A stretch of DNA of 64,000 bases from Diadema setosum. Its lineage: Eukaryota > Echinodermata > Echinoidea > Diadematoida > Diadematidae. The DNA is taken from contig NC_092697.1 of the NCBI RefSeq assembly GCF_964275005.1, positions 12,941,327 to 13,005,326 on the forward strand, in the 5' to 3' direction. Under the pieces are notes generated by a model. It was not told the origin of the DNA and ran no database searches. It worked only from the letters and a program-made list of their open reading frames with translations. Position numbers and translations under genes: made by a program. This document shows positions 34,601-58,900 of this stretch, one piece after another (within the stretch, counting starts at the first letter, position 1; the number at the start of each line of letters is the position of its first letter).

Positions 34601-37600
34601 TTATATGTCATTTCATTCACTACTGGATATTCTGTATGTGGCCCCTGTGGCGTTTGAACGAACTATGGAATATCCCGTAGCTGGCACGATATGGGTTAAC
34701 ACATGTCAGTAGCAAGTAAAAAGAATGCCCTCCATTGAAATACAGTTGAACCTCTCGTATCCGGACAAGTCGGGACCGGGGCTCATCTGGATAAGGGATT
34801 TGGCCGGATACAGGAGACTCAATGCTTTATACATGTACATATACATACACATGTACTGATGTAGCCCATTGTAGCACCACATGTAGTAATGTGTATACTG
34901 CAACCTTTTCATTGTTACACTCAGTAACAGACCCCAAAATAGAGGTGTATGTTAATGTTGGAAGTAATATGTAATTCATGTGTGTTTGTGTAGGAGTTCT
35001 CAAGGAGTTAGAAATCCCCCTTTCCTCCCGTAATTATTAAAAAAAAAAAAATCATGGCGAGATTGCGTCCATATAATAGAGAGATCCGGATAAAGGGAGG
35101 CCGGATAAGAGAGGTTCAACTGTACTTAAAATCAGAGCTGCACACTAACCCATTTATTCTACTGGTCCGACCTGTCTGTCTGACCAGTAGGTACTGGTCC
35201 ATTCCTGAAAAAGTTATTGGTCCGACAGTGAGTTTTATTGGTCCTGTACCTTCAGACCAGTGCCAGTATGCAGCGTTGTGAAAGTAGAGAATTCTTTTTT
35301 ATATTTTCTTTGTTGCTATCCTACTGTGACACAACAAACTGGTGTACTCTTCTCATCCAGCAATGGCAGCACCGAAACTTAGTAGATTTGTAATTTGAAT
35401 TCTAACCGAAGAAAGAAGCAGGAACAAAATAAAGCAGAAGAAAATCATACTGAATCACGTGGAAACTAAAACATGCACAAGACAACAGAAAGCGCAATGG
35501 TGCCAAGGAATCCCACAGTGCATCTGTGACAGGGCTCTTCTTCGTGCGCAGAAGTTTTGGTGATACCGAGAATTCAGCGTGGTCAGAACAGTCCTACATA
35601 CCTTGACTGCAGCCTGGTGCTGGTTGAGGGTGTAGATGGGGACATTGCAGGGGGTGGCAGAGAAGGTCGGCCAGATGTTGAGGAGGTTGTCGTTGCCGCC
35701 GCTGGCCAGGTAGCGTCCGTCCGGGGACCACTTGAGACCGCATACCTCCTGGAGGTGGGCAGACAGTGTACCAATGTGGTGCTGGGCGACGCGCACGTCG
35801 TGGTGGTGGATGGTGCCGCTTCTCGATCCACTGTTGGCAAGATGGGACAACATTATGGAAACAAACTCACCAGACAACCGAAACAAAAAAGTCATCAAAG
35901 TTTCAAAGTCATCCTCCCAGTGATCACATAACTATTATTTTGTGTGTTAGAACATGTGTTCTACTACAACTTAGAAGAGTAATACACATCAGCAGAAGAG
36001 TATGTGCATTTGAGTACTTTAAGATAAAAGTCCATTCAAAGTTTGGTATCATGACACAGTATTTCAAGAGAATGACTTGGGATCATGTTTTCAGTAGTGA
36101 TCTGCTCTAGATTGTGAGGAAATTGAGAGGAAATTTTACATCAAAAGCAAATACAAAGTATTTCTGGAGATAAGGCAAGACAAAGGAGACAAATGATACA
36201 GCAAACTAATGAATAGATAGAAATATGGTTCCACATGAAAGACTCATCACAAATATGAACATACATTTGGATTGCGTGTTGCACAACAGCTTCTGATGCA
36301 TGATTCAAATTACCCTGCATGCCCTCCAAAGATGCTATATACTGCACATACCTGCTGAGTACGTAGGAGTTCCATGAGAGTGCCCCCACCCTAGCGGCAT
36401 GGCCAGCCATACAACGTAGTCTCTTGGCATTCTCAATGTCCCACAGCTGAAGAGAAGAATGAAGATACCAGAGCGTTGTAAGTACAGGAATACTGTATGC
36501 TCTACATTTTTCACTACAACTATGATTGATTATATTTCTTTGGGGGTTGTGTGGTAGAGGTTGTTAAAAATATGGGAGAGGGAAGAGGGGAGGTTGTCAA
36601 TTGTTTTGTGATCTTTGTTGTTGAGTGTGGCAAATTTTAGCATGACTCTAAAGAACTATTTTGCTGTGTAGATGGTCTTATCCCCTACTGCACTTTATTT
36701 GCGGACTAGACAAGCACGCTGTAGTGCTCTCTGCACAAGTTGGCTCAGATGTCTAGTATCTAATTTTCAAAGAACTGAGATTACTTTTAATTCCCTGCTA
36801 TCTTACCATGGACTTCTTGCAGACCTGAGGCATTGTTACTACTGGGCTGTCAAGCCTATGATTATTCAGGAAGGGGGTGGCTAAAATTAACTGAATGCTC
36901 ATAAAAAATCTGTTGGTCTTGCTATACCAGTAAAAAACTCTCCAAGGCTGTAAACTCTTTATTGGGTCATTTTACAACAAACACCAGCACATGGGACACC
37001 ACCCAGTCAACTGCCAGTGTTATTACATGTACACCAAAGATGACTTGTTAGAAACTATGTGCAATGAATGCATAACACATTTTAACAACAAAACAAACCT
37101 CCAGCTCACTAGTTGCTCTTTTTAAAACCACAACAATAGCTCCAAGAAAGGGTTGATCACCAACTGCACCTAGTATTATGCCCATGATCCTTACATCCTG
37201 TCTATTGTTTCGAGTTCACCACTTGGACATGACTGCACTATTCACAAAGACTCTGCTCCTATCACATGAACCCTTTCAGCACCTTGAGGATTATTGCTAC
37301 TTCGACCTCTACTCTAATAAGGAGGGGGGGGGGCACGTTCATGCTACTATTGGAGATGAAATAACAGAATTGAGTGAATCTTGGATGATGTTCTTGTTCA
37401 CAGATATTGCTGATACAGGGAAACAAACCATGTAAATAGGACTGCAGTATTCTTAGGGCAAAAAGGGAATACTTCTATCAGAAAACAGTATTTGTACCTG
37501 TCCTGCAATAGACATGTGTAGTAAAACAATTTGGGAAGAATGGCATTTTCCACGAAACCTGCCATCCTTTTTTTCAATCAAAAAGAAAAGAAAAAGAAAA

Positions 37601-40600
37601 CATACAAAATACTGTAAGGTAACAGTTTGCATCTCTGTTTATGTTTTAGCTGGTAGAGATGCTGCAGCTCATGATAATTGATTGAGTGAAAGTGCTTGAA
37701 ACTCATTGGCTTTTTGCCTAGTCCAGTGAGGTGTTAAGGGGATGGTACAGTATTTGTGGACATGAAAATTGGGCTTTAACTTTTTTTTTTTTGCGAGATA
37801 CCAAGAAAACACTTATGAAATAGTACAGAGCACACCATTTTAAGAGGAATTCAAAGTTTATTTGATGAAAATCGGGTTTGGAATAGCTGAAACATCCACA
37901 AACAAAGTAAAACAAAACGATCGTAAAAAAGTGTGGGTCCCACACTTATCAGAATCGCTCTGTTTTGGATATCTCAGCCATTTCAAAACCAATTTTTATC
38001 AAATAAACGTTGAATTTCTCATGGAATTAAATGTTCTTTCACATTTCATATGAGGTTTCTCATGATATCACCAAAAAATGTTAGAAACCTGAAATTAGGT
38101 CTTAACCAAAACTATAAGATCCCTTTAAGATTTCTCATTTGTACTTATTCCTCGAAAATTCTTAACAAGGCAAAGCTTTGGACAAGTGCTAAAGGTGAGG
38201 AAGAAAGGAGAGAGAAACAGTTCAAATCTCCCTTTACCTGCACCTCCCCACCACTGGTCCCGACAGCCAGATAGTTCCCTTCGGTGATCCAGCTGACTGA
38301 GGTCACGTAGTCCTCCGGTCCCTCAAGCTGGAGGAGCTGTTTGATGTCCCCACTGGCTGCGTTCCACAGGTACACATTGTTGGCCAGGGCCACGGCAAGG
38401 TGGTTGTGGCAACTCCAGTCTATCAGGTTCAGGTCTGAAAGAGGCAGAGCCAGGGTATTGGGACAGGGGAGAGAAACAAAAAATCAAATTTGAAGTGCCA
38501 TGTCACCATCCAACCAACCTCCTAAAGAAGAGAGTCTCTGGCTGCGTTTATCTAACTTGAGAGAGAGAATCTCGTTTCCAAAAGGGTTTGAAACACGATT
38601 CTCGATGAGCCGCGTTTATCTAACCATCATACAATCGTGATTCCAGTGGTGTCACTGCGCAGCTGCTTTGCGCCGTTTGACCCGGGAAATAAAGGTCAAC
38701 TGCAACAAAAAAACATGCCTCCTCAGTCACACACAAATAATGGATAGAGAGTACAACCGGAAACAGCTGGGATTTGACCTTGAGATATAAACGCGTTTCA
38801 AAACGGCATTGCGTTTATCTACTCACAGAACAGCGATCGTGGTCTCAAACGCGTTTCAAAACGCCCTTTGAAAGGCGTTTCAAAACGGCATTCCTAAACG
38901 CGTTTATCTAACCCCTGAAAATGCCTCAAATGCGTTTAGGATCGTGATTCTGCCTCAGAAAATTTTTAGATAAACGCAGCCTCTCTTTCCTCTCTTTAGA
39001 CAGATCCTGGTATCACATCCAAGCAAAAGGCAGTGTCTGTTAACTGAAACTTCATGTGAAACTGAAACTTCATGTGAAATGCAATACCCATAGGTGGTAG
39101 TCACTCTATGTCTCTTCAAAAATGACTGGGTTAACGTTTGCATTTTAGACCAGCAAGTTTGGACCCAGTGAAGTCAACTTTGAAGGACTCTATTCATAAT
39201 ACTGCATATCTACTATGCATTTTTCCACCTTTTACACTGGGAGTTGTCTTACTTCAGGCAAATCCCACCATGAATAGCGTTTTGAGTGTAGTTACGCAAG
39301 TCTCTCACTTTGCTTAATGTGAAGTATCAAGAATTCATTTTCAATCAAATTTTATTTCCATATTTACCCCTTTAGCATGTACATAGTTGTACATATAGGA
39401 GTAGGTACATGTAGCTCAGATTTTTTAAACACTCTTATCCACTACGCAATGATGGCTCCCTGATCACACTTCATTGGAATTTCAGCAAAGGAAATAAGGT
39501 AGACAGCAATAATTTGAGACCTTAACAGAGTCTAGACGTGGCCTGATACTCACAATAGTCATCAAGCATGTCAGGTGCATCCAAGATGCGCTCCGGCTGC
39601 TGTGGGATGTGTCTGACTGTCTTCTTTGTGGATCCTGGTGTACGATTCTGAGAATACAGCACCTTCAGGTTGTTCTGGTACCCTGGGGTTTAACAAAATA
39701 TGACTGCTTTGCTTAGGGCATGTGCCAAGTGAAATGGAATGAATGTGCGTAACATCTTTGTTTCTACAGATGGGGGAGTACAACAAGCAAAATTGATCAT
39801 TTTGCAGTATGAAATAGGACAATTTATAATCATTTACAGAAAAACTAGTTACAGTTTGACATATATTGCGGCATTTGGATTTTTTTCTGCTAACATATCA
39901 TGAAAACAACAAGGTATGCAAACACTATAGAGAAAGTAAATTATCCAAAACAATGCAATCAGTGGTAAGGTAAAAGCATGTACAATGTACATGTACATGC
40001 TAAGATATTGTGAGAGAGATTGACTCTGTATTTAGATAAGCAGTATAATGTGAAAAATGAAAGAAAACAAATAGCACACACTATATTGTAGTTTAGAACT
40101 TTTAGATGTGTGAATAAGTTCCATTTCTGGATTATGCATGCATACTAAAAAAAAACCAACAAAACCTGACACCTCCAGAAAGATTTTAATTTTATGAATC
40201 AGACCTAAAACCTGCAGAATACAATGTCTGGAACATTCAATCATCAAATATGACTTGTGTCCATATTTTGAAATGCTTGAATAAATAAGTAAAAGTAATC
40301 ATGCACATCTAGACAAAATAGCCAGTAAATTCTAAAACCATTAGATGCAGATGTAACTACACTATCCATTTTTAAAGATAAGTAGTAGCCCACAGCAGCC
40401 TGAAACAAGGGTCTACTTTCACACAGCCAGTCTGAGAACCAACCTTCAGGCGCACTCGGGGGCTTGTTCTTGTAGCAGAGGATCTTGGAATTCATGAGGT
40501 CTCCATTTAGGTTCTCTGCCATGGCCCTCTGGTACTCAAGTTTTGAGGGGCTCATCAGCTCTGGATTGGTATTCTCCCCCGCCGCAGAGCTGTCCAGGAG

Positions 40601-42020
40601 CTTGAAGCTGCCCATGTCGAAATTTGTGGCACTCCTGTTTGGGATGAAGCGATCTCCTCCTGGGGTCCTAGTCGGCGTCTTTGACTTTCCTGATGATCAG
40701 AGTTACAGATAATGACATTGTTCAGGAGAACTACAAGCTATTGTACTACTAAGAGATATTCATTTTTTTTTCTTTTAGTTTTGGTCATCTTCTTCTATGG
40801 GCAATGTCAAGTTTTAGGGAAATAACTCGACAAAAATGTTTCTTCCTCTAATGTCCCTTGGAAGTCAGACAAATAAACAAATATGTTTGGTTTGAAATTA
40901 GGATGAATTGACTCTTCACCACTCACTTTTTGAAAAGAAAGAAAAGCAAAGATTGAAATAAAACTTACAGTATCTACCAAAGTTTTGTATATTGTAGAGT
41001 TCAAATTTTGCTCAGAATAGATAATTATGATCCATGCAGAATGTATGGAAATTCCGATTCATCTTTATTTATCTATGACAGGAGGACATAGAAATTTTGC
41101 TTCCTTTTTTGTGCAATGATGCAAACCACACTCACATCACAGTTACTTGTTTCCATGACAGTTACAACGAATGTTACATATTCATGAATGATCATTACGG
41201 ACTTGTATAAAAATTGATGTTTACTGCCCAAGAAAATGTACTGAAAACAGTGAAATACATTTTGGTTTATTCTATCACTCCTACTGATTGAGGCTTTATC
41301 AAAGTTTACATCAAGACAGAAATAAATTATATCTTGCCTGAGTTACAGATAGTACTTACAAACAAGGCAATACTTCAGTCATTTGATAGAGCTCAACCCC
41401 ATGACTAAAGGGAGAACTACATATTGTACTTAGAATTGGTTAGATTTCTTCTTCTAAATTACAATCTACAAAATTCAGGGAAACTTCCCATGGTGGGGAG
41501 AAGGGACACTTTAAACTTTTGATTACAGAACATAATTCATAACATGTACAGCACCTGTGAGTAGTAACTACAATTTCTCTAATGTAAATAGAAAAGGAGG
41601 AGAGAGATCGAGAGACCGAGTGAAAGAGTATGCAAGGGAAAGGAGAAGAACCTTTTAGTCTAATTCAAAAGAAATGATGCACAAAATACATGTACATGAA
41701 TGAGGGCAATTTCAAGCCTAGTGAAATTTGCACCAACCTTTCCCTGGGGTCTTCGTCCTAATGCTTCCACCTGGAGTGCGTGAGGGCGTCTTCGATTTTC
41801 CGTTGCCACCTGGCGTCTTGGAGGGAGTCTTGCTGGCGCCAAAGGACCGGTTGGAGACCTTCATGGGTGAAGTGATGGCACTGCTGTTCAGGCTCTTGTT
41901 CATGGAGACATTGGCACAGCCGCCCACTTCCTTCGCCTTGCGCTGCCAGCGCATCGCCGGGCCGCCCGTTGGCCCATCGAGCTTGAGAAGGCTGTTCAGT
42001 TCATTATCAAAGTGAGACAT
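31431..42020 (-). CDS. CDC20/Fizzy, APC/C co-activator, 536 aa, eight coding exons
   Basis: CDC20 activates the anaphase-promoting complex (APC/C) in mitosis, presents D-box and KEN substrates, and is the target of the spindle checkpoint. The joined exons (42020-41738, 40689-40444, 39682-39554, 38434-38238, 36447-36353, 35830-35602, 32274-32031, 31618-31431) keep frame at all seven junctions with consensus GT-AG ends. Seen: LNSLLKLD and RWQRKAKE near the N-terminus as in vertebrate CDC20; four TP/TPGG repeats (about 64-106); C-box DRFIP at 107-111; ERILDAPD; a seven-bladed WD40 propeller from about residue 220; [13 protein letters not shown]; and the C-terminal Ile-Arg tail that docks on APC/C. 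Length compares with 499 aa in human. Odd: the KEN box reads GEN (132-134) and KILR reads KILC (163-166). The gene is intact and probably functional. Confidence 0.96.
32031..32274 (-). CDS. CDC20 exon 7
   Basis: [47 protein letters not shown]: blades five to six, with the family-specific HGFAQNQL phrase. Acceptor CTTTAG, donor TTG|GTGAGT. Confidence 0.95.
32885..33597. repeat. MITE in CDC20 intron 6 (about 710 bp)
   Basis: The left end GGGTGATTTCAAGTTTGGTG and the right end CACCGAACTTGAAATCACCC are inverted repeats followed by GCTAGTGCTAGTG / CACTAGCACTA words. Near the right end an extra copy in opposite orientation (33519 onwards) makes a smaller hairpin. Non-coding. Confidence 0.7.
33731..34699. 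repeat. TTAA-bounded element, 969 bp, in CDC20 intron 6
   Basis: Starts TTAACCCATATCGGGCCA and ends TGGCACGATATGGGTTAA, so both borders are TTAA with CCC/GGG next to it, as in piggyBac-type elements. The interior has no transposase-like frame; the 83-89 codon frames inside are unremarkable. Confidence 0.65.
34743..35122. mobile_element. Pogo/Tigger-like MITE, 380 bp, in CDC20 intron 6
   Basis: Ends CAGTTGAACCTCTCGTATCC and CCGGATAAGAGAGGTTCAACTG are inverted repeats flanked by TA on each side. CAGTTGAACC-type ends with a TA target are those of the pogo group of Tc1/mariner elements (family knowledge). No transposase remains. Confidence 0.75.
35602..35830 (-). CDS. CDC20 exon 6
   Basis: [40 protein letters not shown] and LNQHQAAVK: blades three to four. 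Ends in phase 0 at AAG|GTATGT. Confidence 0.95.
36353..36447 (-). CDS. CDC20 exon 5
   Basis: [20 protein letters not shown] then [11 protein letters not shown]: second propeller blade. Acceptor TCTTCAG, donor CAG|GTATGT. Confidence 0.95.
37734..38128. repeat. TTAA-bounded palindromic MITE, copy 3, in CDC20 intron 4
   Basis: Same family as 18645 and 27296: left border TTAAGGGGATGG, right border GATCCCTTTAA, centre GTGGGTCCCACAC. It ends about 110 bp downstream of the exon 4 donor (minus strand), inside CDC20 intron 4. Confidence 0.75.
38238..38434 (-). CDS. CDC20 exon 4
   Basis: Begins the WD40 propeller: [23 protein letters not shown], then [18 protein letters not shown]. Ends in phase 0 at CAG|GTAAAG. 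Confidence 0.95.
38540..38981. repeat. MITE, TIR GGCTGCGTTTATCTAA, in CDC20 intron 3
   Basis: The left end GGCTGCGTTTATCTAA is the exact complement of the right end TTAGATAAACGCAGCC. The interior repeats CGCGTTTATCTA, GATTCTCGATGAG and GCGTTTCAAAACG words in both directions. TCTCT flanks both ends. Non-coding. Confidence 0.75.
39554..39682 (-). CDS. CDC20 exon 3
   Basis: Encodes [12 protein letters not shown]...[31 protein letters not shown] (split Tyr), the conserved bridge into the propeller. The vertebrate CRY triplet is VRH here. Confidence 0.95.
40444..40689 (-). CDS. CDC20 exon 2
   Basis: Completes Gly95 and runs to Glu176 plus one base. It contains the C-box DRFIPNR, the GEN triplet where family members usually have KEN, the LNLNG-like AENLNGDLM segment and KILC. 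Confidence 0.95.
41738..42020 (-). CDS. CDC20 exon 1
   Basis: Residues 1-94 plus one base; donor AAAG|GTTGGT. It holds the start, the conserved RWQRKAKE segment and the basic TPGG repeats (CDK-type TP sites). The start is chosen because [12 protein letters not shown] matches the family N-terminus. Confidence 0.93.
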
Positions 42021-42901: not shown

Positions 42902-43626
42902 AAATTCTATTACTGTAAGATCAACCCTACAGTCTGTAACTTACAATTGTACTACCAAAGGAGCGCCCGGGGGTTTATGCAGAGTAGAAATTAGAATTAA
43001 CGTTCAAAGAGTTATTAGTGACTGTGTCTGTGTTAACCCCGGCGGGGTAGGTACGCGTTGGGGTCGCTGCTGCGGTTAAATGTCTGTGTGAGCTCTTCGC
43101 ATTCGGGATGGTCGCAGTTATTTAATATTAACACTTTATACTGTACTGTACTGTAATGACTAAACTAGACAGAAGGATCCGTCCGTCAGGAGGAGTCTTA
43201 TTTATCTTTCAGACATTATAACTCTCCTTCAGGAAGGGATCCATGAAGCCAGGCGCAGTCTCCATGGAACATGCCATGTATCCCTGACGACCAGTGACCA
43301 GATACCTGGATACAGACCCATCTTCTGTGATCTTTGTTGTTCAATGTAATGACATGTTACTAGCCGTTACGTATAACAGCAACAGAACAGAGTCAGAGAG
43401 CCCTTTGATATTAACAAAATTGATTGAATAGTATTGTTACACAGCGATGCGACTTGACCGAAATATCAGTCTTTATCTGGTCGTCAAGGATATGTTCCGC
43501 GGAGACTGCGTCTGGCTTCACAGATCCCTAAATTAATAACCCTGCTACGGAGGAGAGCGACGTCATCTTCCAGCCGGACAGGCGACAGGCGGATCTAACG
43601 ACAACGTTAGATCTTTCTGTCTACAC
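42902..43626. other. Short unique segment between MITE copy A and the long-TIR element
   Basis: No gene is seen. A small inverted repeat ('ggtcgtcagggataca' / 'gtatccctgacgacc'-like words near 43270 and 43480) links phrases 'gaagggatccatgaagccag' and 'ctggcttcacagatccct', suggesting another foldback element at about 43166-43530. Confidence 0.4.
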
Positions 43627-43635
43627 AGCGACAGG
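43627..43635 (+). repeat. 9-bp target-site duplication, left
   Basis: AGCGACAGG immediately outside the left arm; identical to 54253-54261 in the same orientation. Confidence 0.75.
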
Positions 43636-45222
43636 GGGGTTGGACAACTCGACCGCGGGATAAGTCGTCCCTGGACAACTCGTCCCTACCCCTGGACAGC
43701 TCGACCGGGTCGAGTTGTCCATGGGCGGGTTTGCGATTGGACAACTCGACCCAACTTTATTTGTGCCTGATTTTTACAGAATGAAACACATTTTTGTCAT
43801 AATATTGACATAGGTTAGTGGAATGATGTATGAAAAAAATGTTTCATGGCATTTTAAGGCAATTCCTTTTTATTTTCTGATGCTGCGAAGCAATATTTAA
43901 CGGTATCTTCTCTGCTCTGAGAGTCTCGGTGACGGAGCTTTTTCTTGTGACGAAAGCTTGCATGGTAAGGTGAAACTTGTTGAGAAATTTCCATTAAATG
44001 CTTAACACCAGCAATAAAATATGGTAGTTTACATAGGTACATGTGTTTTCTATCCTTGGTGACATTTTCATGAGCAGAGGAATCATTTTAGTATGAAAAA
44101 TGAAACAATTGTCTACAGTATGTCGAATCGTCTTCGTTCGTACTTGTTCGGTTTCCATATCGCGGGACGCGCGCCGCGCTGATAGCTGCTGAGAGGCTCG
44201 GCTCGGCGTGGCGCTCGCCCACTGGCCACCGGACCCCCTCCCACGTGCACCGATACCAGCACAACTTGTGACAACAGCCTGTTTGGTAAGGTGAAATTTG
44301 TTGAGAAATTTCCTTTAGATACGAATAACCAACAATAAAATATAGTGTTTCATATAAATACATGTGTTTTCTATCCTTGGTGACATTTTTATAGGCAAAT
44401 GAATCATTTCAGTAAGAAAAATGAAACAAATCCTATGTCGATTCGTCTTCGTTCGGTTTCCACACCGCGGCACGCTGCTCTCGAGAGTAGCGCACGCAAC
44501 CACCGATACCCGGCCTGCGGGCCCCCCGGGCTGTAGGGCTGGCAGTCGTGCAGCTCGATGGGTGGAGCGAGCTGTGTTGCTGCGTAGCTACGAAGTCGAC
44601 CGTGATCTTTTCTTCGACATTTGAACTAAATTCCAGTCAATGAAACTATTTCATTAACTTTCAGCGATGTTATACTGACTAAATGGTTTGAAAAGTGTCT
44701 GAAATTTCACCGGCACTGTATTGATTCGTAAATAAGTCATCATCAACATGACAACCAGTCTTATCATGCAAGCCCAATAATTCTCCGCACTACCACTGCC
44801 ATATTGTACACTTCCCACAAGCAATGGAGAACCTGACTCCATATTGATACAGTACTGTGGGGACCAGTACTGTACTGTCAACAAATAATGGGTAAAAAAA
44901 AAAACATAGTGACAACAAAGGAAATAAAAATTTTCACTCTTTTTCTTTTACTTTTTTTTGTGTGGTTGGTTTGTTTATTTCTGTTTTTGCCAAAAAAAGG
45001 AGAGTTGCTCTGCATGTCCTGCATTCATAAAAAAAAAAAAATGAAAAGAAAAGAAAAGAACAGGGTGTACATGAGGAACTGCTACTGGCTGTCTTAGCTT
45101 GTCTAAAAACTTCAAATGTATGTGTAATCCTCTATTCTTTTTTTTTTTTCTACGCACTTCTCTCTCGGTCTTTGCCGAAGATATTATTTTGGAGAAAAAA
45201 AAAGGCCTGTTACTTACACTAC
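43636..45222 (+). repeat. Left terminal inverted repeat of the 10.6-kb element
   Basis: The outer tip carries five copies of GGACAACTCGACC or close variants within 110 bp. Further in is an internal duplication: about 43970-44165 and 44285-44480 share 'catgtgttttctatccttgg' and 'gttgagaaatttcc'. The inner end is A/T homopolymer-rich and finishes at 'ggcctgttacttacact'. Short open frames here recur in the right arm only because the arms are copies. Confidence 0.85.
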
Positions 45223-46756
45223 AGGTACTCCCACACCCGTAGGTTGCCCAGACTCTGGAACAAATTACCTGACTCGGTAAGGGACTCAGCAGTTATCGAT
45301 TCTCTCTCATCTTTCCTTCAACAGCTGAGAGGTTCATTTTAATGTAGTGTATTGATAACCACAGGTATGACATACATACAATGTACATGTGTATGAGAAT
45401 CTCTGTATCTTGACTTTGTTTGAAATACCCAAATGTGTCAAGTTACAGTTATATTTCTTCTCTGGGTTTCAGATTCTATATGTAAGACATATATAACATT
45501 ATCTGATTAGTAATTGTATATATATTTTTTTAATGTTCATGCCTTAATTCATGCTCACATTATCTAATATTATTTATGAATTTATGGCTCCAGATACATA
45601 ATATACATAGCAAAGTGGTGTATGTAATACCACACAAGGATTTTTCAAAGAAAGTGCTGGGTCATGGAGTCTCAGGGTAATGTAAATGATAAAGTTTAAG
45701 TTTTGAAATTATTTTCATTTTTACTGTGTATCAAAGATGGTTTGGGGTATGGTGATGATACTTGCTGGCACCGTACACTTTGCTGTCTGCAGTGATTTTT
45801 CTTTTTAGGGGAGGGGCCGAGGTTTTGGGCCTTGGGATAGGGTTTGGGTGCAAAGAATTACATTATTAGTCAGAAGTGCAGTTAGAGGGGACATTTGTTG
45901 TTGTTGACATGTACTCTGATAATACTTTTTGTACACTGAATTTTTTTCTTTTTTTACGGGACGGGGTGGAATGAATACCCATTTGCCACAATGATATTTT
46001 TAGTTGTACCATATGTAGAATAATCCTAATGGTGTACACGCTTCATTCAAAATTGTACTGTTTCTTTTCTTTTATGTTCAACTACTCCCTGATGTGCTCC
46101 CTTAAGTTGGTTGGAGAGGCCCAAGGGTCATAGTGATTTTGACTGCTTTTTTCCAACCCAGCTCCTTGGCTTAGGGAAGCTCAACAGGTATCTAGATATT
46201 ACAATTTTTTGTTGCCATGGCAATGCAGTTTCTCCCACTGATGGAAATGTGTCTTTTCTCTTCTTCTGGCTGATGCAAACAGGACTCCACAGCTGGGATA
46301 TTCAGTTGCAGGTGCAAGGTGTTAATAGCAGTGCATCAAAAAGGGACCCCCCCCCCCCCCATGGATTCCTTGTGCATTTTTGTTGTTGTTGGTCTCATCA
46401 GCAATGGCCAACACAATTGTAATTATGGTCATAATTAGATATTTCTATACGGTAACATAGCATACAAAACTGTGTTAACCCCATTCATTTCATTGCAAGA
46501 AAGTATTTCTATGGGGCTATAGTAACAAACTGGCAACCGATGATCATGGCATAAAGGTGAATTCACCAAACTTTTTAGGTGACACTGATTAAATTGATGA
46601 TGACTCGATCCCTTCACGCAGCAAATCGTCACTGCAAACCATTAGGGTCAGGGTAAATAAACAAATGCATAACACAGACAGATTAATGCAAAAGGGCTCG
46701 TACAATCAGAGACATTTCCTCCACCTTTTTTCAATGACTTTGATCTTCAGTTTTAA

Positions 46757-46860
46757 TAATAATAATAGTAATATACATTACATTTATAAGGCGCTTAATA
46801 CGGATGTTTCTAAGCGCACAGTTTACCGGGAAAATTAATATTTAGACCAAAATAATACAA
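46757..46860 (+). repeat. Dispersed repeat with AATAATA start and GGCGCTTAATA core
   Basis: 'aataataatagtaatataca' followed by 'catttataaggcgcttaata' and 'ctaagcgcaca' resembles a short repeat with an AAGCGCTT-type core that I recall as widespread in marine animal genomes; the resemblance is from memory, not from a search. Confidence 0.4.
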
Positions 46861-49800
46861 AAATACCAAAATACAAATACAAAAATATCCAAAAAGAAAA
46901 GATTCAGTGTATAAATGCGATGAGTAGGCCTACTGAAAAATCAAAATCAGTGTGCACCTCCATCGACCAACCCACAACATTCCAAAGGACTACTAGTATC
47001 TACTAAAAAGTTTTATCATGGATTCCTTGTGCATTTTTTTTGTTGTTGATGGTCTCATCAACAATGGTCAACACAATTCTATATCAAGGATCCCTTTATA
47101 GTTTTGTCAGGTAAATGGACAAACGGGCTACAGTTGGAATTTTTTTTTTGTGAAAGGTAACATAATAAATTGTATCAACCTTCCCCACCACCACCACCAC
47201 CACCTCATCTCTCTTTCCAGGTGTAACTGGATGGTTTTCAGCAATGCCGCATTCTCAGCACACTGGCGTACCTTTCACGCTCAACAACCACACGATGACA
47301 CTTTGAAGAACTTCGAAGCAGACAGTGATGTACAATATGTACAAAGATGGTCGTTTATTGTCTTGTAGATGAAGTTCACAAGTCTTCCGGTGCGGTATAA
47401 GAGAGTGGGTATCTCCCACTCAATGAGTGACGGATGAATACATGAATGCTCGAATCAACTAACTTCAAAGAGCAAAATCATTCTATTTATAATGATTCTG
47501 AGGGTGCAGCACATGGTGCTATGGAAAATTTTGTCTAGCACCACCTAGCAACACCTAGCAACAACATAATGAATATAATAGCATTTACATGCTCCACCCC
47601 TTAATAATTTATGCAAACCATCCTCCAATCAGTTGTTGGTTACATGGCTTTAGGCCATGATCATGCCTGTTCAAAAGTGACCATCAGGCTGACCACTAGA
47701 CTACACTCTACTTTGTCTTAGCGACTGTCCACTACCACCTGGCTGGTCATGATGGAAAATCCCATGTATATATGTGTGGTGCTTCTCCCTCCTCTCCGGG
47801 ACTAGCACCCTTCCCAAAACTTTCCATAAGTTTCCCCAGACTCGACATTTCTTATATATTTGATTGTAACAGTTTGTACTGGGGAAACAGCCGAAACTTT
47901 CCACAAATTTCCAAAGACTCAACATCTTCTTTGTATTTCTTTATATTATGGTTTGCGAACTCAACAACTTCTTTGTATCCCTTAATATTATGGTTTGCAA
48001 AGGAGAAGACAGTTTTCTGCTGAATGATCACCTTTTATACCATAGAGCCAATATGGTGGCTGCAGTATTGATGCACTAACTATATGCTGTAAAATGAAAT
48101 GCCATCCTTTCAAACGACTGGTATTCAATATCATCAATTTGTGGTGCATGTATGACACAGGATTGATCCACTTGCTCTGTCACACCAGGCTCTCTCTCTT
48201 GTATCTCTATCTCACCTTCAAATCCCCCAGTTACAGATTAAAATAGTTTTTGAATACCAATTCTGTGAGTTATAACTCCAAATGTATCTCCTTTTGGATG
48301 TCAGGTAGTCAAATCACATTCATTTGCAATCTTTACATTATACATGATTAAGGATTTTTGTTTTTTTTTTTCTAAAATGTTCCCATTTTTCGGCCATTTC
48401 CCTCCTTTTGTGTGTGTGTGAGTGTGTATGCAATATGAACTTAAATGAGGAATAAAGATAGTAAAGACAATGAGTCCGTCATGTTTGACATTTTTTTTTT
48501 TTGGGGGGGGGGCAACATGACTGTTATATTCTGATGATTTAAATGATCACATGATATTTTTTTTGCTGCTAATACATTGTATGTGGCATACACACACATG
48601 TGCATGCACAAATGAAAAAAAAAAAGATACTGTGACATCATAACTTGACCAAAAATTTACCATCTATTTTCAGCCTTCTTATAGTTAGTTTTTTAAGAGT
48701 ACTGATAGTTTTTTAATTTCATTTGTAGAATTCCAGCTACCTATATTGAACATTTTGTCCCATCTTGGTAATTTATCTTCAACAATGTTATCAAAATATA
48801 ATATAGACCACTGGACTTTATTCTCATCAGATTGTGTTATGTTAGCAATTGTCTGTGAAAACAAACAACCATATAGGCCCTATGGGTTAGAAATGTGAAA
48901 TTGCTCATGTTATAAAAAAGCTTGTGTGTTTGTCCTATAGGCATCATAAAATGAAATGTTTTCCTGGTTCTACAACATACTCCTATATGTACACACATTG
49001 GTTTTTTAAGTGTAGCAAAAGAAAAAAAAAAAAAAAACCCTGCTGAAAACTGCTATATCCAATTGTGGAGAGCCAGTGGAGTAAAATTGAGTCAAAAGGG
49101 GCCTGAGCTTTCAATCCTATAGCAGAATCTTTGTGTCAGAGACAAAATAACAAACAGGCAGGGAAAGCAATCATATAATAGGACTTCACACATAAAGAAT
49201 AGTCAGAGACTGGCTAAGGACACAGAACAAGGAAAACAAAAGGGGAGGGTAGGAAGTCATGGGCAAGGAGCCCAACAGGTTTAAGGAGGGGGATTAGAGT
49301 GGGAGGTGGACAGACAAAAGGCTGAGGAGGGTCAGTGATGATCCAGATCCGAGGACCAAAGGGGGAAACCTTTGAAGGAACAGGATGAATAGGGAGGCAA
49401 TATCAAACAAGATAAAGAACAACAGAGGGATAAAAAAGGAAAAGAGTGAAAAGCATGGGGGGGGGGGGGGGCTGAGCAAGCAGTGAGCCTTAATAAGGTG
49501 TACCAAGAGGAGGCAACAAAATGAAAGTGAGTGTCAACCAACCAATGCAAGTTCTCAATCATATCAAAGCATGATAATAGTCATAATAACAGTCATAATA
49601 ATAATTATAATAGGGGCCTAATAATGATAATGATATTGATAATAGAAATAAAAATGATAATTAAAAAAAGAAATATGTATTTGATATGAAAAGGGAGGAA
49701 ATACACAAAATCCCTGGGAGAGAAAATGCATTTTACGTTGATGCTGGCATGAATATGCATAGAAGTATAGAACCACATTTAATTTCATTTCATGGATCCT

Positions 49801-50489
49801 GACTATCTGGGCAGATCAGACTTCTCCCCTTTGCTTTATATTCCACAATTTCTATCAAACTTTAGTGACCACTGCAACTTCATTCTAAAAGGTGTTTGCT
49901 TGTGTTGTTGCAACAATTTGTTCCAATCAAGTTGTACAAGACAATAGCAATGTATTAGTTGAAAATGTGACAAGCATTATTTGTGTTTGTGTCTTTATCA
50001 AGATAATGCAGTTTCTTGAAGGTATGGTGAAGGCTAATGAAGCCATAATAATGTAAAGCTATGTTCTTTTAAAAAATTAATTATGAATGTATTTTAATCT
50101 GTTTTCATAGTTTTTAAGCAAATATCTCAAAACTTTGGTACACATGACTGTGATATGAAAAAGTCCATGACACATCTTTGCAGTGTCCTGAATTGGTTGC
50201 TATGATAATGGCATAGCAAAAATAAAGGATGAAGCATGATTATTAAACCTTATCACAGGATACCCGTACCGGTCATTTTCATGAATTTTGCCACCATTGC
50301 TGGCCTCGATAAAAGACTGTAAGACACTAGGTTTCCTTGACGTGGTGATGGAGTGTTGTATTATGACTCGGAGAAAACCTCCCAAAGAGAAGGAAACTGG
50401 ATGGAGGCAGGAGTACCTGAATACAAGGTAATCATCTTCAGTATATATACAGTAATACTTCATTTTGAGGTTTCATTTTTAGCAGAAAT

Positions 50490-50785
50490 ACTACCTGAAG
50501 CAAGAGGAATCATTCTGAAGGTTACAGCTCGTTATTCCAAAGGTTTGTTATTCGGAAGGCTCTTAGTCCTAAGATTCGTTATTCCAAAGGTTCTTTATTC
50601 CAAATTTCATTTTCGGATAAACGAATCTCGGGAATAACGAACCTTCGGAATAATGCCACAAATGTTCGGATTAACTAACCCTTTTTCATTTTCGGATTAA
50701 TTAAAGAACCTCTAGGTATAGGGCATTTGCGTGTTTCAGATTAACCAACCTTCGGAATAGCGAACTTTGGGAATAACAAACAGCA
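50490..50785. repeat. GTTATTCCGAAGG-type inverted-repeat element
   Basis: The left half repeats 'gttattccaaagg' and 'gttattcggaagg' in direct order; the right half repeats 'gggaataacgaaccttcgga', 'ttcggaatagcgaa' and 'gggaataacaaac', the complement. The whole stretch therefore folds back on itself through many short repeats. Non-coding. Confidence 0.6.
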
Positions 50786-50805
50786 CCCCATTCTGAAGCT
50801 GGTAC

Positions 50806-50917
50806 TAAAAAAAAAAATTGAGTAGTTTGATCCACAAGACTTTGTAAAGGATGGTCCGTCGGTCAGTCCATTGCAAAGTCTTGTGGATCAAACTACCCTC
50901 ATTTTTTTTTTTTAGCA
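50806..50917. repeat. 112-bp hairpin
   Basis: 'gtagtttgatccacaagact' at 50822 is complementary to 'agtcttgtggatcaaactac' at 50877, with A and T runs at the outer edges and GGATGGTCCGTCGGTCAGTCC in the loop region. Stem about 30-35 bp with small mismatches. Confidence 0.7.
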
Positions 50918-52676
50918 GTACATTGTAAACCTAAATCTTGGCAGGTGTAACCGCTAGATCACATGCAGATGTGCACGACACCTTTTCCTCCTTACTGATT
51001 GATGCATTGCCTTGATAATTGCAAAATTTATGAAAATCATGCATCTAAAGTTGTGGATTGAAATATATTCTCTCAATTGGCAATTCAGTTGTATGTATAC
51101 AATCAGTAGGCCTATATTTCAATGTGTAGTTGTGCAAGACACTTTTGTGTGAGTGTCGAAAGATGTCTTGCCACTGTAACAACATTTTTGTACATCATTC
51201 AAAAGTGTAGAATTCTCAAACTATGCTGGTTTTCAAGAGATTCAAACAAAAATTGACTCAATATAAAGTTGTGCAAGATATATTAGTATACAAATGTATT
51301 CGAAGGTGGTTTCCATGATAAATGTAGGCCCTACATGGTGGTCTAGGAAATTACAAAAGGACTTGCAGATCGCACTTCTTCAGTTTTTAAGTGATTAGAC
51401 AAAAGTTTAATAGCACACACGTTGAGCTAAATGTAAAGCTGTGTATGCCCTTACATGCAAACTTGCATTCGGGGGGGGGGGGGGGGGGGGGGGGCTTTAT
51501 GCACTGCTAGACACCTTGCCCCTGCAACCGAATATCCCAGCTGTGGAGTCCTGTTTACCTTATAACATTTTAATCAGCACTGGGGAGAAAGTGTGTTGCC
51601 ATGGCAACAGCAAATTATGGCCCTTTAAATGGGGTAATGGACTAGCAAATAAGACTTGATATGCCATTTTTTTCAAATAGGAATTACCAGATATATGGAA
51701 CACATTAAAAAAACTTGACATTCAAAGTGCAAGATACATTTTTAAAGAGTAAAGTGTGGTGTCATGGTAACAGCACATTTTTGATGGCCTCAAAATCAGG
51801 AATGCCGTGCAGGGTCATGAAATTCTTTTCCAATTTGTGCACATTCAGTCAGTAGAAATAGTAATTATGAAAAATTAATACAAAATTTTTTTTTTTTTGA
51901 GGTCAAATAGGCTTTAATGGAAAATACCAGTATTTAAGTGGGGGTATAAATCATCTTGACAGTGACATTTCTAGTTTTCATTTATACTCCCTTCTTTGAA
52001 GTGCTATTCAGCAAAATTTTAGGTTGTTCTATCTAGATACCAGATAAGTAGACTGATGAGCTCACATCAAACTGGGACATAAAATAAGACAAGATGGTAT
52101 TAAAAATGCACCTTTGTTTATGCCCTGATAAATAAAATGTGATGAAAATTAGTCATGTCCAGACCAGAAATATGTTGTGAAGAAAGGTGTGACATTGTTT
52201 TCTGTGATGAAACTAAGGTTTAGAGAGAACTGGATGGTTTGATGGACTTTAACGTGGCCTTGGGATAATGTGACACCATAACTAATGTGTAGTGAAGTGT
52301 CTGTAACGTCAAACAGTTTTCGCAGATTATATCTTTAGCAAAGACAGAGATAATTTTAAGTACCGTACCATACAGAAATATTTCTATTATGATCATAATT
52401 CTATTTTAAGAAAAATATAATACCTTTGAGTTTAACAGAGAGAGGCAATGTAACCTGTACCATACATATAGGTAACAAAATGAAATTAAGAATTATACAT
52501 TTCTGTTTTTCTGACACAACTCTGTCCAGGGTATTAGAATGATGTTCTACGCAGGCCTGGGATGCCCCCCCCCCCCCTTCATTCCCCCTTTTTTTCTTAA
52601 AAAGGATTAGTTCAGATCATATCATCAACTTCAGAGAAGCACTGTCAGAAATTACTGGTAAATATAACTTACAAGT

Positions 52677-54252
52677 GTTTAAGTGTAAGTAACAGGCATT
52701 TTTTTCCCCAAAAATAATATCTTCTGCAAAGACGGAGAGAAGAAAATAGAGGATTAATACACATACATTTGAAGTTTTCAGACAAGCTAAGACAGCCAGT
52801 ACCTCGTGTACCGGTACACCCTAATTTTCTTTTCCTTTTTTTTTTTTTTTTTTTTTTTTAATAAATGCAGGACATGCAGAGCAACTCTCCTTTTTTGGCA
52901 AAAACAGAAATAAACAAAACAACCACACACAAAAAAAAGTAAAAGAAAAAGAGTCAAAATTTTGTTCGCTTTTGTTGTCACTATGTTTTTTTCCCCATTA
53001 TTTGTTGACAGTACAGTACTGGTCCCCACAGTACTGTATCAATATGGAGTCAGGTTCTCCATTGCTTGTGGGAAGTGTATGGCAGTGGTAGTGCGGAGAA
53101 TTATTGGGCTTGCATGATAAGACTGGTTGTCATGTTGATGATGACTTATTTACGAATCAATACAGTGCCGGTGAAATTTCAGACACTTTTCAAACCATTT
53201 AGTCAGTATAACATCGTTCAAAGTTGAGAGAAATGTATGAAATAGTTTCATTGACTGGAATTTAGTTCAAATGTCGAAGAAAAGATCACGGTCGACTTCG
53301 TAGCTACGCAGCAACACAGCTCGCTCCACCCATCGAGCTGCACGACTGCCAGCCCTACAGCCCGGGGGGGCCGCGGGCCGGTATCGGTGGTTGCGTGCGC
53401 TACTCTCGAGAGCAGCGTGCCACGGTGTGGAAACCGAACGAAGACGAATCGACATAGGATTTGTTTCATTTTTCTTACTGAAATGATTCATTTGCCCATA
53501 AAAATGTCACCAAGGATAGAAAACACATGTATTTATATGAAACACTATATTTTATTGTTGGTTTTTCGTATCTAAAGGAAATTTCTCAACAAATTTCACC
53601 TTACCAAACAGGCTGTTGTCACAAGTTGTGCTGGTATCGGTGCACGTGGGAGGGGGTCCGGTGGCCAGTGGGCGAGCGCCACGCCGAGCCGAGCCTCTCA
53701 GCAGCTATCAGCGCGGCGCGCGTTCCGCGATATGGAAACCGAACAAGTACGAACGAAGACGATTCGACATACTGTAGACAATTGTTTCATTTTTCATACT
53801 AAAATGATTCCTCTGCTCATGAAAATGTCACCAAGGATAGAAAACACATGTACCTATGTAAACTACCATATTTTATTGCTGGTGTTAAGCATTTAATGGA
53901 AATTTCTCAACAAGTTTCACCTTACCATGCAAGCTTTCGTCACAAGAAAAAGCTCCGTCACCGAGACTCTCAGAGCAGAGAAGATACCGTTAAATATTGC
54001 TTCGCAGCATCAGAAAATAAAAAGGAATTGCCTTAAAATGCCATGAAACATTTTTTTCATACATCATTCCACTAACCTATGTCAATATTATGACAAAAAT
54101 GTGTTTCATTCTGTAAAAATCAGGCACAAATAAAGTTGGGTCGGGTTGTCCAATCGCAAACCCGCCCCTGGACAACTCGACCCGGTCGAGCTGTCCAGGG
54201 GTAGGGACGAGTTGTCCAGGGACGACTTATCCCGCGGTCGAGTTGTCCAGGA
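52677..54252 (-). repeat. Right terminal inverted repeat of the 10.6-kb element
   Basis: Inverted copy of 43636-45222, from 'agtgtaagtaacaggc' at the inner edge to GGTCGAGTTGTCCAGGA at the tip. Differences concentrate in homopolymer runs and in a small patch near 52800-52815. Confidence 0.85.
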
Positions 54253-54261
54253 AGCGACAGG
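54253..54261 (+). repeat. 9-bp target-site duplication, right
   Basis: AGCGACAGG immediately outside the right arm; identical to 43627-43635 in the same orientation. Confidence 0.75.
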
Positions 54262-54496
54262 CCTCCCTGCCCTGGCCTGTCACAGCACTGCCAGCAGTCG
54301 CTGTACGGCGTCTGGCCCACTGGTCAGGCTAAATTCAAAGTAAATTTACACTAGGAGGCCTACGGACTATACATTAACAGTTACATGTACCATGGTTACA
54401 GAGCCTAACGTACACACTGCCAGCGTGCCACACACTCACTCCCGATCCCGCACGTGTAATAAATACATAGCTATCAGAATACACAGTAGGGTTGGA

Positions 54497-55999: not shown

Positions 56000-58900
56000 G
56001 TGAGTTTTACTTTTTTGCTTACCATGCTCATGATGCTCATGTAACTATACACAGCCCAGTCGCTGTACATGGTACGTCGCATAGCGTAACAGTGTCTGGT
56101 CGGGCTAGATGCTCATGATGCTTTAATAGGCCTATTGTTACAGTGCATTTTACGAAGCGAAGTTTAGAATCCGCCACTACACTGTCACTAGGGTCACTTA
56201 CAAGCTCAAGCCCGAGCGATCGCCGCGGGCCGGCCGAGGGTTAAATAGATGCGTATGAGAAGACAACTAGAATCTACAGCACCACGAGCACAGCTTGTGA
56301 TGTCACCTGCGTACAGTGAGGTTGAACGATAGGAAAATATAAAGAGAAATTCACAAAATTTTATTTTGAGGGGAAAATGCACATATACTACTAGTTCCTC
56401 GCCTCGACTTGCAATTGAGTAACTATAGACCTACATGGTTAAAAAAAGGTATTCGTCAAGACTAGAGGCAAGCGCAAGCCAAGTGTTCTTTTGAAGTTTT
56501 GTGCGAGAAAAGTGAAAATACAATTAAATTTATGCGTATATCATTGTACACATCACGTTAGGCAGAAAGATCCATCCCTGTCCGGAGGAGTCTTGTAATG
56601 CGTTGTATTTTTTATGAGGGCCGAAACGTTTATAGGGTGAACTAACAATAATGACATGACGACAATGCCCCCAATCTGAATTGGGGGGGGGGGGGGGGGG
56701 GACAGTGATGTGACAGCAGGGGCGATCCGCGAAACTATCCAGATACTGTGGCTGCCTGCTAATCTATCTACATGTATGTTCTGGATATAGCATCACGGTC
56801 AACATGCTCATTAAATCATGCATCTATAGTAGGCCTGCTAAGTAGTATTCATGCAAGCTGCCCATAATAAATTCGACAACAACGCCATCCAAAATTCAAC
56901 TGCCTGCTACGTTGTAAAATGTAGAAACCTATAATCCCCCATGCTTTTGCGCATGGTTGAACCTTAATTGGCACTGGAGATCAAATCTTGGTGCAGGTGC
57001 CGATAAATCTAGTCATGTCATCATGATGTAAAGGACAGAGCTACCAAGTCTCACGCATTCTGCGTGAGACTCAAGCATTTACATAGGGTCTGTCTCACGA
57101 TCTCACGCATGGCACCCATTTTTCTCACGCATCTGGTGAAGTCTGCAATTTGGGCCAAAAATAAGGAGCATAGCTCAAAGGATTAGAGTGATAGTTGCAA
57201 TTGAAGGTATATTTCCCTTTTGCCTTTCAAAATTAGTAAAAAATAGTCACTTAAGTATGCACCCGATCGCATCATTAAGAGCTAATAATTTAAAAAAGCT
57301 CCTTATCATGGGAGGGGGACACCCTCCTCGTTTGCGTGCGCATGCGCGCGAGCGCCGAGACGCCGAGTCATAAAAATTTCACGCATAAAAGTTTTTTGAA
57401 CTTGGCATCTCTGAAAGGAACATCTTATAATTTACCGTCATTGGCTTTAAAAGTTTGTATTGTCCAACAGTGCAACACCTGATGAACCTTAGAAGCCAAT
57501 CCACCTTTATAGACAGGTTGACTGAGTGAATGCAGCAATATTACTACACATCATCTTATATGAGAGTTTGAGGAAAATCGGACAATCCGTTCAAAAGTTA
57601 TGAATTTTTGAAGTTTTTGAGCACTCAGTCACTGCTGGATGAGAAGACTACTGTAGATTATGATGTCACATGTGTAACTGTATAAAGAAAACAAAGAAAA
57701 TTCAACATATTTTCATTTTTCTTGCAAAAGAGAATGCTTGACTTGCCTCTTTTAGAAGGTGGGGGGGGGGGAATAATAATACACTCAACATTCGTCAGTG
57801 ACAAGTTGAGGAAATGTGCACTTTAAAAAAAAAAAAAATTCTGAAATTCTCTTTATATTTTCCTTATATCGTTGTACGTATGTAGCATCAATACGCTACC
57901 GGTATCTTTTCATACAGCAGTGAATATGCAGATACTTAAAAAATTCATAACATTTGAACGGATTGTCTGATTTTCCCCAAACTTTCACTGTTGTGCTGTA
58001 CTCTTATTGCTGTATTCACTCAGTCCACATGTCTCTGAAGGTGAACTTATCCTTTAAGTTTTGATTTTAGAGAGTGCTCCCTGCCATTCAGTAAAGGTTC
58101 ACATTTTTTTTTTCAGCCTTCTCTTGTGGTCAATGTGGCGAGTGACTGTGGCTACACTGATGACCATTACCGCAACTTGGTGGAACTCGGCAAAGATCCA
58201 CTCTTTAAGGATCGACTGAACATCCTTGCCTTTCCCTGCAATCAATTTGGTTACCAGGAACCAAGGTCTGATGCAGAAATTGCGCTGTTTGCCAAGTCTA
58301 TGTACAACGTAGAGTTCCCTCTCTTCAGCAAAGTGGATGTGATTGGATTCGATGCTGACCCTGCTTGGGATTACCTCACCAGTAAGTGCATGTTGGCGCT
58401 TGAACTCGGGATTAATGCCCAGATCAAATCAAATCAGACTTGAGAATACAGTGCTGTCCTGCATTTCTGTTCCACTGTTAGAATCTGCACCCCAAAAATT
58501 AGTTTGTGGACTGCGTAACTGAAAAACCATTTGAGGTATCCTAATGAAACTTGGCATGCATATATGAGTGGGTGAAGTCATGCAGGTTCAGCAACTTTTG
58601 GGTGCCAATGCTCAAGGTCAAAGGGCAAAAGATCAAGGTCAAATTCTCAAAATGGCACTATTTCCCCCATATCTAAGCAATGCCTGAAGGTATTTCCTTG
58701 AAACTTTAGTATACATGTTCTACATTACAAAGATTCTTCAGAGAGAGTGTCTGGTCATGAGGTCAAAGGTCAAGTAAAAATATTGAGATTCACTTTTTCC
58801 TCCATATCTCGCAAATGGTAGACCTACAATGCATGTACTGACTGGCAATCATTATCTAGGGAGTTTTTGGGTCATGGGTCAAAGGTCAAGGTCAACGTAG

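Follow-up and report, generated by a model that had tools for sequence, protein, structure and literature searches.

The stretch analysed here (the window) comprises 64,000 nucleotides of the Diadema setosum genome, contig NC_092697.1, and corresponds to C13:12941327-13005326 of the host genome. It contains an element of 10.6 kb (~9.6 kb without a nested long terminal repeat, LTR) at window positions 43635-54252, limited by two long terminal inverted repeats (TIRs, here called arms) and a short target-site duplication. The left arm carries the A end and the right arm the B end. The structure of this element, its other copies in the genome and its relationship to Mutator-like elements (MULEs) are reported below; its features are listed in the table.

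An initial annotation of the window had described two inverted near-copies with a 9-base match directly outside them, and both were found at the places it had given. The arms pair, for example, between 43641-44529 and 53361-54249 (889 nt, 98% complementary), and the pairing goes on, with indels, to about 45202 and 52699. In the genome search the left arm (43636-45222) and its partner (52682-54249) were 94% alike over 1.6 kb. The sequence AGCGACAGG is present at both 43627-43635 and 54253-54261. Because the A tip of other copies starts with five G, the duplication here is best taken as 8 bp long (AGCGACAG), with the next base, a G, opening the element. All nine letters match, but comparison within the family assigned the ninth to the element. 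The right tip of the window copy lacks the three outermost bases that the family usually has there. In the subterminal array of the left arm, Tandem Repeats Finder (TRF) reported a 15-bp period with 3.1 copies at 43641-43687, and 43636-43780 folds as single-stranded DNA with a z of -3.18. A scan of 43600-54300 against Rfam gave no match at the gathering score.

Table 1. Coordinates of the element in the window (numbers without a contig name) and of the loci of the third family discussed in the text
Feature	Position	Strand	Basis or remark
Left target-site duplication, AGCGACAG	43627..43634	no strand	Sequence; boundary from comparison with other copies
Left arm, A end, tip GGGGGTT-GGACAACTCG, TIR of ~1.59 kb	43635..45222	+	Carried by 15 large loci, complete or partial
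Subterminal array of GGACAACTCG-type motif	43636..43752	+	4 direct copies and 1 inverted copy, counted in the sequence
Internal direct repeat of the arm	43944-44108 and 44265-44429 (43944..44429)	+	~165 bp each, 83-84% alike
Core	45223..52681	+	Common to the family; without Pfam match in six frames and without clear codon periodicity
Nested solo LTR, TG...CA, later insertion	47222..48184	+	963 bp; 5-bp duplication CCAGG at 47217-47221 and 48185-48189
Right arm, B end, tip (GGT)TCCTGGACAACTCG read inwards	52682..54252	-	Self-comparison and comparison with family copies
Right target-site duplication, AGCGACAG	54253..54260	no strand	Sequence and comparison with other copies
Third family, FLYWCH and MULE matches	C2:42307859-42319723		
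Third family, FLYWCH and MULE matches	C18:33106967-33118880		
Third family, FLYWCH and MULE matches	C18:7254172-7266415		
Third family, FLYWCH and MULE matches	C20:23888733-23901003		

To the left of the element, an open reading frame (ORF) on the minus strand (35455-35898) matched WD40_CDC20-Fz at 93 bits; the whole-protein cut-off of the model is 200, and a single exon would score below it in this way. The ORF at 40244-40615 resembles the N-terminal part of this CDC20-type gene. To the right, a glutathione peroxidase match was found on the plus strand at ~58120-58377 (85 bits). With the CDC20-type gene on the minus strand and the glutathione peroxidase gene on the plus strand, the element lies between two divergent genes. 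Positions in 5′ flanks are often reported for MULEs. Farther away in the window, a match to RVT_1 (reverse transcriptase) was seen on the plus strand at 6370-7014; the neighbouring ORFs at 2041-2640 and 7145-7744 gave no Pfam match, nor did an ORF of 509 amino acids on the minus strand at 22416-23945.

Copies of the family, their duplications and their core

The left arm of the window copy was used as the query against the genome (912.7 Mb, 102 contigs). Only the best candidates were scored in the genome searches, and copy counts are lower bounds. At least 55 matches were obtained, 28 of them ~1.5-1.6 kb long. The long matches pair into at least 15 large loci with different flanks (C1, C3a, C3b, C4, C6a, C6b, C7, C8, C9, C10, C12, C13, C15, C16 and C17, where C13 is the window copy). 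The other 14 large loci and ten diverged loci were fetched for comparison. Large copies with both ends measure 5.7-21.5 kb, nested insertions counted in; much shorter foldback copies, x3 with 1.2 kb and x9 with about 1.0 kb, occur among the diverged loci. The internal direct repeat of the arm gave corresponding secondary matches in 15/15 large loci.

The ends of the family were fixed by copy comparison as GGGGGTTGGACAACTCG at the A end and GGTTCCTGGACAACTCG at the B end. Each of the 13 large copies with both ends has its own duplication of 8 bp, in a few cases 9, and all are different. C1 (A tip lost) and C6a (both ends lost) were left out of this count, and the left-side duplication of C4 was read separately from the sequence. 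An automatic test found at least 8 shared flank bases in 11/13 of these copies. It gave 7 bases for the window copy and 6 for C16, where the longer matches were read by eye; the short value of the window copy goes with its right tip being three bases short. In C7 and C16 the match is shifted by a few bases from the tip on one side. The small copies are also duplicated at their flanks (x3, 9 bp; x9, 8 bp with 9 matching letters). When the left flank of one copy was set against the right flank of another as a control (12 copies), a word of 7 bases or more was shared in 1/132 pairs.

The window element moved as a single unit and left an 8-9 bp duplication. The initial annotation had argued for one transposed unit, and the test that it had set in advance, a search for copies with different duplications, returned many. 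Chance inversion is excluded by the number of arm matches and by the different flanks of the large loci. Some copies are very alike. C1 and the window copy, on different chromosomes, have the nested LTR in common and are 98.4% alike over aligned bases. The cores of C8 and C15 differ by 0.2% (4,002 bases) and the A arms of C12 and C17 by 0.0% over the outer 880 bp, and within both pairs the duplications are different. Given this likeness, some copies probably moved recently.

The core is the same sequence, with indels, in the large copies compared (mean difference 2.5%). A protein search of 45223-52670 in six frames gave no Pfam match, and codon periodicity was weak at most, with a smallest p of 0.017 in 42 windows. 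Seven other ORFs taken from copies gave no Pfam match, and no autonomous copy of the family was found among the copies examined. The element is therefore non-autonomous, with no coding capacity found, as had been claimed from the lack of a recognisable transposase. Frames longer than 250 amino acids occur only in C6b, inside a nested LTR-type retroelement (302 and 1336 amino acids).

The description of the core had to be corrected: it is a shared family core into which the solo LTR of Table 1 was inserted later. Among 13 other copies compared, this LTR is present in C1 only. At least 29 further genome copies of it were found at 97-99%, several in pairs ~7 kb apart. Because the nested LTR is common to both, the window copy and C1 most likely come from one element that moved after its entry. 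A 16-bp minisatellite was also seen in the core (50529-50604), and a similar one in another fetched locus (1033-1100), with the consensus sequences TCGTTATTCCAAAGGT and GAACTTTCGGAATAAC.

Relatives with MULE genes and the class of the family

A search with the family tip gave 33 places at up to 3 mismatches and 0 in the reversed control. An extra tip at C4:28107125 revealed that the C4 copy is split. Its B arm holds, ~85 bases in and within the subterminal motif array, a 38,792-bp element (C4:28107205-28145996). This giant has a perfect target duplication of 9 bp (GAGTTGTCC). When the C4 flanks were rejoined with one duplication, they matched 27/27 other arms at 97-100% (26 without gaps, one with one gap). 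The giant has outer inverted repeats of ~865 bp (94% alike). Further in lies a second inverted pair, 98-99% alike and at least 4.4 kb long on each side, and each of these stretches contains one MULE gene. Between the two genes, the exon that was compared is 99% alike, with a stop codon in the left copy. It matched PF10551 at 31.0 bits (cut-off 27.6), and the surrounding stretches DGTF, VDFE and NNDVEGFH are taken by us to resemble the three catalytic positions. The size of the giant at insertion is uncertain, with at least one later insertion (391 bp, in its right half) and an 18.8-kb centre outside the sequence read.

The giant represents a sister family; its paired copies include nine or more of ~1.1 kb as well as three of 4.7-4.9 kb. 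At C10:3559253-3561003, pieces related to its MULE gene and to its TIR lie together, which supports the gene as a regular part of the sister family. A mid-size sister copy on C2 was considered as a transposase carrier and rejected, the fetched 2.2-kb piece having no ORF longer than 95 amino acids; this piece matches the right half of the giant at 85-92%, as a deletion form would. Sister-family matches were also seen at C12:27443819-27480072, where one segment is apparently duplicated ~31 kb apart. The longer relative with a transposase that had been suggested as a check was thus found, with a related tip and MULE genes, but in a sister family and not in the same family.

The tip of the window family was aligned to that of the giant with a score of 34, the highest of 2000 mononucleotide shuffles being 27, and the GGACAACTCG-type tip motif is common to both families. 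A joint tip motif (GACAACTCGNCCNCGRGAYAAGTC) occurs at 480 places at up to 3 mismatches versus 8 in the reversed control. One hundred of these places were detailed, among them every one with no more than 2 mismatches (88). For 6/27 MULE matches, the nearest of these 88 is no more than 12 kb away; uniform placement would give 0.04 such matches. Two of the six are in the giant and four in a third family (C2, C18 twice, C20; Table 1). In 4/5 copies of the third family, the MULE match is preceded by a FLYWCH match at a distance of ~5.2 kb and followed by the tip motif at 6.6-7.0 kb, with constant spacing. This family is a candidate source of transposase. No FLYWCH match was listed in the C4 giant, and FLYWCH together with MULE was unseen in the window family. 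At C1:46250741-46250860 the tip motif recurs every 16 bases at 3 mismatches, possibly as a minisatellite from the subterminal array or by chance likeness.

Judged by the tip motif common to MULE-bearing families, the duplication and the TIR length, the family is likely to be of MULE type, in agreement with the MULE-like label of the initial annotation. The superfamily is recognized by duplications of 8-11 bp (8-9 bp here) and by long TIRs (~1.6 kb here). The marks of foldback elements are also present, namely long inverted repeats, internal repeats and a variable middle, with a short-unit array of only ~3 units. The window element is accordingly read as a copy of a large non-autonomous, foldback-like MULE family moved in trans, with a probability of roughly 0.85. 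A MULE transposase made elsewhere would bind the GGACAACTCG array at each tip and move the element.

Several points weigh against this assignment. No copy with a MULE transposase (PF10551) and the arms of the window family was found. Among the 33 tips, only those of the C4 copy adjoin a MULE match, and the genes there are those of the inserted giant. The six coincidences of MULE match and tip come from two families and count as two independent facts. A fifth similar MULE match of the third family, at C6:32194719, has no listed FLYWCH and no tip at up to 2 mismatches. A common tip motif falls short of proving cross-mobilisation, duplications of 8-9 bp occur outside MULEs too, and the genome was searched for transposases of the MULE type only.

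The same observations bear on the alternatives. The family could be a foldback element of another superfamily (P/Galileo-like or hAT, both known for duplications of 7-8 bp) with its transposase lost or unseen and its tip likeness to MULEs convergent. Long-TIR foldback forms arose in several superfamilies, Galileo being P-type (PMC3573991), and a transposase was not seen in any copy examined. The tip motif, however, is common to two MULE-encoding families of the same genome and the duplication of the sister giant is 9 bp, and such an origin is considered improbable. Polinton/Maverick elements, which have 6-bp duplications and polymerase and integrase genes, were rejected, the duplications here being 8-9 bp and the core having no such domain.

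A Pack-MULE, in which the core would be host DNA captured between the arms, is suggested by the large size of the core and its lack of transposon genes, flanked as it is by MULE-like arms. Yet the same core is present in the large copies compared, and its matches (best 40 of 5081 candidates) all come from the family or from the nested LTR; none points to an independent host locus. No gene fragment was detected by Pfam in six frames of the window core, a search to which captured non-coding DNA would be invisible. This origin is held to be very improbable. Two near-identical inverted arms at one place could also arise, without any transposon, from an assembly fold or from segmental duplication in inverted orientation. 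A fold is very unlikely for the family because the same arms lie on other chromosomes in unrelated flanks, and the 13 judged large loci each have their own duplication. For the family this explanation is refuted, and for the window copy it is given practically no weight.

Core orientation and tip asymmetry

The orientation of the core relative to the tips was compared in 13 other copies, C6a being left out. Seven have the core as in the window (C1, C4, C6b, C7, C10, C12 and C17), five have it inverted (C3a, C8, C9, C15 and C16) and C3b is a hybrid with 3.6-kb arms. In C7 and C10, 997 bp of inner sequence are additionally inverted. The core tree requires at least three flips, its deeper nodes being poorly supported. 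The two arms within one copy differ by 0.7-4.1% (outer 880 bp), and between-copy averages are 2.7-3.4%. Recombination between the two inverted arms would keep them alike save for the outermost bases. It would occasionally flip the core between fixed tips, and may once have extended the arms to 3.6 kb.

Only four tip columns split A from B over the 1,500-bp arm (eight standard-orientation copies, 75% criterion), and the remaining copies agree with them. One A and one B tip were found in 15/15 copies judged (the 13 large copies, x3 and x9). The tips of x7, x14, x15, x18, x19, x8, x17 and x18b, with one end or no clear end visible, were uncounted. In the sister family, one end matches from position 1 in 20/20 pairs, and at the opposite end the match starts only at position 9 (position 12 in the giant); the outer 8 bases are unaligned there, and their identity does not follow. 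These pairs were formed by hand. Two pairs on C20 lie ~15 kb apart and may represent one duplication. The count excludes several singletons and two further pairs in which an end is truncated.

Flipped cores with constant A and B tips can be explained without selection, because reciprocal exchange between inverted arms keeps one A and one B. The copies are also related by descent. It is with considerable doubt that the window family and its sister are proposed to form one clade of animal MULEs in which an A tip has to be combined with a B tip, a requirement resembling to some degree the 12/23 rule of V(D)J (variable, diversity, joining) recombination. The arms would otherwise be interchangeable through core-flipping recombination. 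An autonomous giant would also belong to the clade, a MULE measuring up to 38.8 kb whose two long inverted stretches each carry a transposase gene. On this reading, a clade needing unlike ends would test whether the MULE synapse needs non-identical ends, and its giant autonomous member would test the size ceiling of animal cut-and-paste elements. The flipped cores with invariant asymmetric tips offer a direct and cheap test of a functional difference between transposon ends.

Comparison with known transposons

The TU elements of sea urchin have long inverted repeats, 15-bp outer repeats and 8-bp duplications, and by description they resemble the family reported here. Sea urchin is also cited among the hosts of foldback elements (PMC4079207). 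In a survey of 4268 arthropod genomes, complete MULEs measured 1.4-10.0 kb and the longest TIR was 1193 bp, so that the present arms (1.6 kb) are above the maximum and the element length is near it (PMC13359780).

The Muta families of Aedes aegypti are MULEs with, as here, many non-autonomous derivatives, and some Muta elements moved in trans in yeast (PMC5225508). Muta5 measures 3.5 kb with 151-bp TIRs (PMC5225508), against 10.6 kb with arms of 1.6 kb (3.6 kb in one copy) here. For the present family, autonomous copies sharing the arms were looked for and not found. Tm1, a Mutator/Foldback element of root-knot nematodes, is alike in its foldback-like composite TIRs and its non-autonomous group; it also has 9-bp duplications, MITE-like (miniature inverted-repeat transposable element) groups and a FLYWCH and MULE (Phantom-type) transposase in a relative (PMC3169594). 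It differs in the sizes given for it (~1-2.3 kb) and in having a transposase copy with the same TIRs, whereas the transposase link here is the tip motif only (PMC3169594).

Tetris of Drosophila virilis is an apparently non-autonomous foldback element with TIRs of up to 1,735 bp and no conserved ORF; its duplications are 8-10 bp, it was assigned to Mutator by duplication length, and an autonomous copy was not found (PMC4079207). It is unlike the present family in its 220-bp internal tandem repeats and its three structurally complete copies, and the present family, unlike Tetris, has relatives with MULE genes that carry a common tip motif (PMC4079207). Galileo, of the P superfamily, also has long TIRs that recombine, extend inward and form chimeras, with 7-bp flanking sequences and a P-type transposase as differences (PMC3573991). 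Core flipping between fixed asymmetric tips was not met in the portion of the Galileo description considered (PMC3573991).

Large non-autonomous MULEs seem little described in animals, and among part of the literature matches, screened by titles and abstract starts, nothing like the window family was seen. Movement of elements of ~6-12 kb without detectable transposase is seen here and was probably recent; their relative of 38.8 kb, which has MULE genes, is flanked by perfect duplications. The family and its giant relative are relevant to the discussion of how large eukaryotic DNA transposons can be (PMC6431247). The class of non-autonomous, long-TIR, foldback-like MULEs is already known. The size, the arm length, the flipping core and the giant sister make this family a variant worth describing.

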